Part shown: positions 15,397-18,101 of the stretch, piece by piece
Numbering within the stretch: the first letter of the stretch is position 1
How the letters are laid out: each line of letters opens with the position of its first letter
Origin: Acidimicrobiaceae bacterium
GTDB taxonomy: Bacteria > Actinomycetota > Acidimicrobiia > Acidimicrobiales > Bog-793
DNA length: 46,173 nucleotides
Assembly (NCBI GenBank): GCA_003159795.1
Contig: PLPK01000059.1
Coordinates: forward strand, 1 to 46,173
Direction of reading: 5' to 3'
Notes under the pieces: model-generated
What the model was told of the DNA's origin: nothing
Database searches by the model: none
Seen by the model: only the letters and a program-made list of their open reading frames with translations
Made by a program: the position numbers and the translations under genes

Positions 15397-16404
15397 ATGG
15401 AGGTGCGCGACGCGACCGCCGGCGACCGGGCGTGGCTGGCAGGCGTGTTGGCGGAAAGGTGGGGCTCGACCCTCATCGCCCGGCGCGACGCGCTCGTCGA
15501 CGCGGGGGAGCTGCCGGGGCTGATCGCCGAGATCGACGGCGAACCGGTGGGTCTCGCGACCTACGAGGAAACCGACGGGATGATCGAGATCGTGACCCTC
15601 GACGTCCTGGGCGAGCGCCAGGGAGTCGGTACGGCGCTCGTCGAACGGCTGGTGGCGCTCGCCGGAGAGCGCCACTGCAGCCGGGTCTGGCTCGTTACGA
15701 CGAACGACAACCTGCGGGCCCTGCGCTTCTACGAGCGGCGCGGGTTCCGGCTCGCCGCCCTCCACGCCGGGGCGGTCGACCGGGCCCGCGCCCTGAAGCC
15801 CGGCATCCCCACGGTCGGCTCCGGCGGCCTGGAGATCCACGACGAGATCGAGCTCGCCTGGGAGATCCCCCCGGCGGGCGTGGCAGGCCACGCCAGGACC
15901 GGCGGGGCCGCGGACCCGGGCGAGGTCGTGCTGGAGAGGGTCACCGAGCCCGACAAGGCCGTGCTGGCGAGGCTCCTCCAGTTCTACCGGCACGACTTCT
16001 CGGCGTTCCGTCATGACGAACTGGCCGAGGACGGCACCTTCGCCTATCGGTTCCTCGACCTGTACTTCCGGGAATCCGATCGGGAGGCCTGGTTCATCCG
16101 CCACGCGGGGAAGCTCGCCGGGTTCGCGATGACGCGGACGATGCCGGACTGCGGGGCAGAGGTCGCCGAGTTCTTCGTCTTGCGCGCCCACCGCCGCGTC
16201 GGCGTCGGGCGCCAAGCGGCGGGGGACCTCTTCTGTGGCCGGCCGGGTCGCTGGGAGGTCGCCTTCGACGTGGCGAACGAGGAGGCAGCCCGTTTCTGGC
16301 CGGCGGTCGTCGCGTCGGCGGCGACAGGACCGGTCGACTGCACACGCGCAACGCCGTCGGCCCGCACCCACGAGCAGGTGGTGCTGCGGTTCTCGACGGC
16401 CTAG
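15397..16404 (+). CDS. Tandem GNAT acetyltransferase-domain protein
   Basis: The 335-aa protein has two GNAT-like halves. Residues 1 to about 150 form a standard domain, with VTLDVLGERQGVGTALVERL (the acetyl-CoA-binding RxxGxG loop region) and NDNLRALRFYERRGFRL. Residues about 170-335 form a second, more divergent domain with LLQFYRHDFSAF, FIRHAGKLAGFAMTR, AEFFVLRAHRRVGVGRQAA and DVANEEAARFW, like small stand-alone predicted acetyltransferases. Both halves keep an RxxGxG-type loop. Substrates are unknown. It diverges from the broken monooxygenase gene, and a TnpB element begins directly after its stop. Confidence 0.85.
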   Translation: MEVRDATAGDRAWLAGVLAERWGSTLIARRDALVDAGELPGLIAEIDGEPVGLATYEETDGMIEIVTLDVLGERQGVGTALVERLVALAGERHCSRVWLVTTNDNLRALRFYERRGFRLAALHAGAVDRARALKPGIPTVGSGGLEIHDEIELAWEIPPAGVAGHARTGGAADPGEVVLERVTEPDKAVLARLLQFYRHDFSAFRHDELAEDGTFAYRFLDLYFRESDREAWFIRHAGKLAGFAMTRTMPDCGAEVAEFFVLRAHRRVGVGRQAAGDLFCGRPGRWEVAFDVANEEAARFWPAVVASAATGPVDCTRATPSARTHEQVVLRFSTA

Positions 16405-16417
16405 GTTCGGCAAATGG

Positions 16418-16580
16418 GTGAGACGGCCGGGACAAACCCGGCGGCTTACTGCCTCGCCATCTCAGCCACTGCGAACCGGGCGCCGTTGCCGGTGCCCCGT
16501 CCAAGTCTCACGCACTGCCTCCTTTCGGGTCGCAGTGCTGCTTGGTTCTGCCCTCAGGCGGCCGCTGCCGGCGGAGACTG
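16418..16580 (-). ncRNA. Candidate omega (reRNA) guide RNA scaffold at the 3' end of tnpB
   Basis: In TnpB systems the guide RNA covers the end of tnpB and the right end of the element. Downstream of the stop the minus strand contains GCACTGC/GCAGTGC (7-bp stem), then GGGC-CCG/CGG-GCCC around GCAA, then GCCGGG-TTTGT-CCCGGC. A 7-bp long-range repeat, GTGAGAC (16505-16511) with GTCTCAC (16418-16424), would close the last two. The guide would lie beyond the right end, toward 16400. This is inferred from position and folding by eye. Confidence 0.4.
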
Positions 16581-17945
16581 AGCTCTACCGGTCTGACGCG
16601 ACCTCAGGTCAGCGTTTTGCGTCTCGGGTCGTAGCCCCGCGACGTCGTGCTCTTTGGCTCTCTCGGCAAGGAGGCGTGCTCCCTCCCGGGCGATGTTGCG
16701 CGCGGCGTTGACGTCCCGGTCAAGGGACATCGCGCAGCGCCCACACTCGAAGACCCGGGAGGACAGAGGCAGCTTGGCTCTCACTGCCTCGACACCTCGG
16801 TCCGCACATTGCGAACAGGTCTTTGACGATGGGTAGAACCGGTCCACCACGACGAGGGTGGCGCCCCGCTCGGAGCACTTGTAGGCGAGCTGGCGCCGGA
16901 GCTCACCGAGGGAGGCATCGGCGACGGAGCGCCCCAGGTGGCCCTTCTTGTTCCCCATCCCGGTCAGGTTGAGGTCCTCGATGGCCACGGCGTCGAAGCG
17001 GTCGACCAGGGCGTTGGTGAGGTGGTGGAGATACAAGGCCCTGGTCGTGGCGATGCGGCCGAGCAGGCGGGCGCGCCGGCGGCGGAGCTTGGCCCGGTTC
17101 TTCGAGCCCTGCTTCGTCCGGGACGAGGCCCGGTTCAGCTTCGCTGGCCTCTCGAGTTGGTTCTCGAGGATCCGGGGATTGGCGATGTGGCCAGCTTCGT
17201 CGGTGAGACCTGGCACGGATTGATCGAGCGTGGCCAGATGAACCAGACCCACGTCGACCCCCACAGTGCCGCCGAGGCGAGCGGAGCGGGCAATCGCTCT
17301 ACGCGCTGGCAACCCCGCCAGGTAGCGCACGGAGTACGCGGCCTGCCAGCGGCCGCCGCGATACGAGATGGTGACCTTTTGGATGCGGGCCCGGCCCGAT
17401 GCGACCAGGTTGTAGAGCCGCCGCGTCGAGGTGGTGGTGTGGATCCAGGCCAGCTGGTCACGACGGCGGCGGATTGTGGGATCGGACGGCGACCGGGGCA
17501 ACATGAGGCGGACCGCGTGGCGCGACGGGCTGAGCCACGAGAGCTGATGGTTGATCTCGACGAAGCTCACCGAGGGGGTGGAACGGTTCCGTGACTTGAA
17601 CCGGGGGAAGCCCACCGGCTTGCCGGCTCGGATGCCCAACTTGGAGTCCGAGAAGTTGGCCAGCCCGGCCGCGGCGTCGCGGATCCCAGAGCGGAAGGCG
17701 TGCATGGAGACCTCGCGCCACCAGGGAGCCTCGGTCTCCTTGACCTCGTTCCAGAGCCTCGACAACGAGTAGGCCGACCATGACAACGAGCCTGAGAGCT
17801 GGTCCTCGGAGATCCCGGCTGCGCGCTCGGCTGATCTGGTGCTCAGGTTCTGTCTGACCTGGTCGAGAGCCCAGTTGTGAGCCCGACGCGCCGCCCCGGC
17901 ATAGGAGCGCAACAGCCGCTCTTGGGCCGGGGTCGGGTCGAGCAC
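16554..17945 (-). CDS. tnpB: TnpB RNA-guided nuclease (IS605 OrfB family)
   Basis: TnpB is the RuvC-type RNA-guided DNA nuclease ancestral to Cas12. In this 463-aa protein the RuvC residues appear intact: Asp231 in VGVDVGLVHLATL, Glu323 in AIEDLNLTGM and Asp411 in LDRDVNAARNI. The zinc finger has two CxxC pairs, Cys377/380 and Cys401/404. The N-terminal LDPTPAQERLLRSYAGAARR is the usual OrfB opening, but the normal short basic stretch before it is missing. The reading frame is closed by a TGA 36 nt upstream, so GTG 17945 is the likely start. The tail after about residue 425 is rich in Arg, Gln and Ala. Confidence 0.93.
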   Translation of the reverse strand: MLDPTPAQERLLRSYAGAARRAHNWALDQVRQNLSTRSAERAAGISEDQLSGSLSWSAYSLSRLWNEVKETEAPWWREVSMHAFRSGIRDAAAGLANFSDSKLGIRAGKPVGFPRFKSRNRSTPSVSFVEINHQLSWLSPSRHAVRLMLPRSPSDPTIRRRRDQLAWIHTTTSTRRLYNLVASGRARIQKVTISYRGGRWQAAYSVRYLAGLPARRAIARSARLGGTVGVDVGLVHLATLDQSVPGLTDEAGHIANPRILENQLERPAKLNRASSRTKQGSKNRAKLRRRRARLLGRIATTRALYLHHLTNALVDRFDAVAIEDLNLTGMGNKKGHLGRSVADASLGELRRQLAYKCSERGATLVVVDRFYPSSKTCSQCADRGVEAVRAKLPLSSRVFECGRCAMSLDRDVNAARNIAREGARLLAERAKEHDVAGLRPETQNADLRSRQTGRAQSPPAAAA

Positions 17946-17983
17946 GAAGACGACCCTCGGGTGAGCACGTCCTCGGAGTCAGG

Positions 17984-18013
17984 CCCGGGCATGGCTTTAG
18001 TGTCATCCCCGGG
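17984..18013. repeat. Imperfect palindrome, candidate left-end hairpin of the TnpB element
   Basis: CCCGGGCATG and CATCCCCGGG pair over 9 of 10 positions around GCTTTAGTGT. It lies about 40 bp upstream of the tnpB start, where an IS605-type left end is expected. Confidence 0.4.
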
Positions 18014-18101
18014 TGTATTGGCCCCCGCCTTCACCCGCCGCCATCTCACCTATTTGCCGCACTCTCGACGGGCTGACCACTGGCCGCACGGGCCCGGGGG
18101 T

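Follow-up and report, generated by a model that had tools for sequence, protein, structure and literature searches.

The window examined here, a contig of 46,173 nucleotides (PLPK01000059.1; contig C35 in a draft assembly of 2.08 Mb, 95% complete, with Acidimicrobiia as nearest named relatives), carries a tnpB gene, most likely of the IS607 type, the product of which belongs to a group of RNA-guided nucleases. With a probability of roughly 80%, judged from sequence comparison, the locus is a non-autonomous cassette that consists of the IS607-type tnpB with its omega RNA, is bounded by Mutator-like DDE transposon ends, and is moved in trans. In the proposed course of events, a Mutator-like transposon with terminal inverted repeats (TIRs) would have taken up tnpB and the omega RNA between its ends, and its transposase, presumably a DDE enzyme of the Mutator type, would mobilize the cassette in trans. 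The sequence shows that the element has inserted precisely ahead of the stop codon of a gene that it leaves intact, its own first three bases serving as the new stop. The TnpB/omega-RNA complex may cut DNA in a way that favors the retention or spread of the element. Capture by a Mutator-like TIR transposon is proposed because the same ends flank both a cassette with a hydrolase gene and an autonomous element with a transposase gene.

Element ends and target duplication

The strongest inverted repeat of the region is the pair of 23-nt TIRs that brackets tnpB (Table 1), and outside the element stand the two copies of an 8-bp target duplication, identical at 7 of 8 positions (16394-16401 and 18066-18073). 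Both features were missed by the first-pass annotation of this DNA, which had the locus run from 16405 to 18013; the ends are now placed at 16402 and 18065. When flanks were compared element by element for eight elements, the duplication matched at 7, 8, 8, 7, 8, 8, 2, and 8 positions, so that seven of the eight reach 7-8 of 8 bp, as against a maximum of 6 among 56 mismatched flank pairings. A 10-bp duplication had been fitted initially and was dropped, as 8 bp suits more elements.

The right-end sequence of the window element is carried by four tnpB relatives (59-63% protein identity), with the left-end TIR present in three (L007, L042, and L043) and only the right end retained in L008. The TIR is conserved across relatives whose flanks are unrelated, and this conservation, combined with its presence around other cargoes, is the ground for rejecting a chance origin. 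TIRs and target duplications are both absent from IS607 elements (PMC6188088), and IS605 elements lack them too. The 23-nt TIRs and 8-bp duplication of the window fall within the ranges given for prokaryotic Mutator-like transposases, namely inverted repeats of 18-39 bp and duplications of 8-9 bp (PMC3942029).

Table 1. Coordinates of the element, its parts, and its host gene in the window
Feature	Position	Strand	Basis or remark
Whole element, 1664 bp	16402..18065	-	Starts with stop codon TAG, ends ...CTCT; target duplications and relatives
TIR, right end, downstream of tnpB	16405..16427	+	87% complementary; kept in relatives
TIR, left end, upstream of tnpB	18040..18062	-	Pairs with 16405-16427
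Target duplication, left copy, 8 bp, CGACGGCC	16394..16401	+	Last coding bases of GNAT
Target duplication, right copy, 8 bp, CGACGGGC	18066..18073	+	Flank comparison
tnpB, predicted IS607-type RNA-guided endonuclease	16554..17945	-	463 aa from GTG
Putative omega RNA core, two hairpins	16474..16555	-	Rfam RF03015 Transposase-2, full model 1-69
Transposon-end DNA outside the omega RNA core	16402..16464	-	Also in own-genome locus on contig C60, without tnpB following
Site of 1-bp deletion relative to partial copy on contig C7	17950..17960	-	Native ATG (17990-17992) out of frame
Host gene, GNAT acetyltransferase, complete	15397..16404	+	Pfam Acetyltransf_1, 3e-23; frame ends exactly at element end
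Original stop codon TGA of GNAT, displaced	18074..18076	+	In frame, directly after right target duplication

Other cargo and autonomous elements

A TIR search covering 397 genomes of the order recovered the same ends around two further kinds of cargo. A cassette at L073:2473-3574 holds a BAAT-like alpha/beta hydrolase gene and no transposase, and an autonomous element of ~4 kb, present in three copies in genome G183, encodes a putative transposase (~600 aa, with a range of 560-630 aa) and a DnaQ-type exonuclease. Relatives of the transposase-like protein occur in 6 of the 397 genomes. Outside the window's genome, tnpB cassettes were found in three genomes, of which G183 and G091 also encode this protein and G077 does not. 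At L095:1716-4913, transposase and DnaQ-type exonuclease form a single open reading frame (ORF) of 1065 aa, a fusion that suggests a functional link between the two proteins. The putative transposase has invariant residues at D256/D257, D332, H357, and E461, and this D, D, H, E pattern, together with a weak match to IS1249, suggests a DDE transposase of the Mutator/IS256 type.

Several observations weigh against a Mutator-like cassette moved in trans. The transposase is tied only weakly to the Mutator/IS256 group (IS1249 model NF033544, E 0.007), the protein has no Pfam match, and no homologue of it was detected in the window's own genome, a 95%-complete draft. The autonomous element L082 lacks a clean 8-bp duplication, and mobilization in trans is a step that we infer. 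Searched by sequence, the transposase matched none of the solved structures. The plasmids searched gave no match to it and contained only TnpB relatives below 60% identity, and the viral contigs searched held no confirmed match to TnpB or to the exact TIR pattern.

In a tree with 12 other TnpBs, several canonical IS607 proteins among them, the five TnpBs from TIR-bearing cassettes form one clade apart from the rest (support 100/99). This grouping is consistent with a single capture.

Insertion at stop codons

The GNAT gene ends in a TAG codon (16402-16404) that comes from the first three bases of the element, with the original TGA displaced to the far side (Table 1). The neighboring genes had been described as decaying, a view that does not hold for GNAT, which is intact. 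The same placement recurs in all five complete tnpB cassettes, where host frames of 323-452 codons end exactly at the element-borne stop. In four of these (L007, L008, L042, and L043) the Pfam domains of the host frames, which comprise an alpha/beta hydrolase, the anti-sigma factor RskA, LytR_C, and tRNA_edit, are complete to the C-terminus. The placement extends to the hydrolase cassette L073, behind an epimerase gene, and to L095, behind a luciferase-like gene. The original TGA was found just beyond the far-side duplication in the window, L007, L043, L073, and L095. The transposase-bearing elements L082, L088, and L093 do not show this placement, and the rule is therefore strong for the cassettes and not universal. 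Two transposase copies in G183, L074:2026 (contig C78) and L075:2000 (contig C159), have their left ends facing inward and a common duplication CCCTCGGC followed by TGA; a composite transposon that had entered at a stop codon would be expected to show this arrangement.

TnpB and the state of this copy

The tnpB ORF matches the Pfam models Cas12f1-like_TNB (1e-20), OrfB_IS605 (1e-17), and HTH_OrfB_IS605 (2e-6). Its best protein model is NF038280 for IS607 TnpB, at 317.8 bits against a cut-off of 350, compared with 170 bits for the IS200/IS605 model NF038281 (cut-off 425). The three RuvC acidic residues and two CxxC pairs reported in the first-pass annotation are invariant in an alignment with eight relatives (D231, E323, and D409/D411 for RuvC; C377/C380/C401/C404 for the zinc ribbon), and the catalytic and zinc-binding region aligns with ISDra2 TnpB structures. 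RNA-guided DNA cleavage is the predicted function. The same annotation had noted that tnpA is missing, and indeed the ORF list for 13-22 kb contains no tnpA-like ORF, whether Y1 or serine recombinase.

The chances are about even that the window copy is an inactive relic, a state that would be compatible with an origin by capture. As first described, no stop codon interrupts the 463 codons of the ORF. Compared with the partial copy on contig C7, however, the window copy lacks one base, which places the native ATG out of frame; the ORF restarts at the GTG at 17945, without the first conserved strand. In the same direction point the three remaining matches to the element in its own genome, which are only partial ends, and the lack of a transposase homologue there. 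The intact catalytic and zinc-binding residues and the frame open from the GTG argue for a functional protein; the missing base may reflect real decay or an error of the draft assembly. The suggestion that the locus might be active is weakened by the frameshift at the start and by the failure to detect a cognate transposase anywhere in the genome.

Omega RNA and the source of the guide

An omega RNA overlapping the 3' end of tnpB, proposed from the letters of the window, is supported by a match to RF03015 (39.5 bits, E 5.7e-6) that lies just under the gathering threshold of 42.7; relatives score 31.9-41.7 bits. The structured hairpins noted at the 3' end of the gene are real (folding z -3.3). 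About 70 nt separate the end of the recognized core from the end of the element, and because of this both the host flank and the transposon end are possible sources of the guide.

One possibility, to which we give slightly less than even odds, is that the omega RNA spans the transposon end, the hairpin of the end acting as third stem-loop, and that the host stop codon marks the start of the guide, in which case TnpB would re-cut the empty site and help to keep the element. A hairpin separates the RF03015 core from the TIR in each of the five right-end regions. Read along the RNA strand, the AG at the target is preceded by TC in most left flanks, a constant dinucleotide resembling a target-adjacent motif. 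By analogy, right-end element RNAs (reRNAs) of Fanzors in eukaryotic transposons have been reported to overcome the constraints of new transposases. Against a guide drawn from the flank, the near-invariant scaffold of the five copies breaks off at ...GTTCG (about 16470), and the next ~60 bp are DNA that is also found at a transposon end on contig C60 of the same genome, with no tnpB following. Canonical IS607 relatives have the RF03015 match, then a further hairpin and (R)GGNAACGG, and then the flank, but this third hairpin and tail are absent from the window element. The 7-bp repeat thought to close the RNA scaffold (16418-16424 with 16505-16511) is present as GTGAGAC/GTCTCAC, but the pairing is not conserved, as its inner partner differs in the relatives that keep the TIR (GTAGGAC, GTCAGAT, and CACAAGA). 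As for the earlier placement of the guide beside the GNAT stop codon, the element does end at that codon and a guide could start there, with the caveat of the distance to the core.

A guide of internal origin is rather unlikely. The scaffold would end near 16465-16474 and the guide would be the adjacent transposon-end sequence, so that TnpB would target other copies of the transposon end and not the host gene. The RF03015 model is matched over its full length up to 16474, conservation drops abruptly at that position in the five copies, and the 60 bp that follow are the end DNA common to contig C60. In canonical IS607 elements, however, the RF03015 match stops about 30-45 nt before the guide, which means that the end of the model is not itself the end of the scaffold. 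Moreover, the ~8 nt that directly follow the scaffold vary between copies, and no good match to a tnpB-less copy was seen by eye.

We tentatively combine these possibilities with the capture of tnpB: TnpB may have been captured once by a DDE family that targets stop codons, and its omega RNA may have been rewired to the new ends, either by a scaffold that absorbs the end or by a guide taken from it. If so, the nuclease would help to spread or keep a cut-and-paste transposon and would be a bacterial counterpart of Fanzor.

Comparison with known systems

By best-model scores that lie under the curated cut-offs, the window element appears to share its TnpB subfamily and omega RNA core with IS607 elements carrying Transposase-2 RNA (RF03015). 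Unlike that family, it is bounded by TIRs and an 8-bp target duplication and lacks both the serine recombinase TnpA and the right-end tail; unlike IS200/IS605, it has no Y1 TnpA nearby. Orphan tnpB genes are common, and the TnpB scores best on the IS607 model, but an ordinary decayed IS607/IS605 element with inverted repeats arising by chance is highly improbable and already contradicted by the TIR kept across relatives with unrelated flanks, the 8-bp duplication, and the same TIR on two other cargoes.

The window element and the hydrolase cassette resemble mobile insertion cassettes, such as those of IS231, as transposon ends around a passenger gene, with no transposase inside and movement presumably in trans. 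The passenger in the window differs in being a predicted RNA-guided nuclease, and insertion differs in its position immediately ahead of stop codons that the element itself restores. With the prokaryotic Mutator-like elements (p-MULT/IS256-type, PMC3942029) the family has in common TIRs of ~20 bp, 8-bp duplications, and an oriented insertion specificity. Those elements target promoters, whereas the window family targets stop codons and has a transposase with no Pfam assignment that is paired with a DnaQ-type exonuclease. The transposon family is of note in its own right, as its insertions seem to fall directly ahead of stop codons and its own end restores the stop, leaving the host protein intact.

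A 2023 study found bacterial TnpBs only in IS200/605 and IS607 elements and asked why they are so confined when their Fanzor descendants occupy many transposon families; it also described IS607 Fanzor2s captured by eukaryotic cut-and-paste transposons, termed Fanzor2* (PMC10711439). The window lineage is like the Fanzor2* elements in that an IS607-type nuclease appears relocated into a transposon with TIRs and target duplications, and unlike them in being bacterial and in involving another transposon family. Within the open-licence papers compared, it is most likely an exception to the reported confinement, a bacterial TnpB in a DDE-type transposon, and it allows the question of that confinement to be tested in bacteria.

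Two further traces of these ends lie in the window's own genome (G000). A perfect left-end TIR at C3:18517-18564 (L006) has different inner sequence, and no matching right end was found for it. The right-end remnant on contig C60 (2068-2133; L005) adjoins an IS1634-like transposase and, judged by eye, also stands beside a HEAT-repeat-like gene that has a toxin-like C-terminus as its neighbor.
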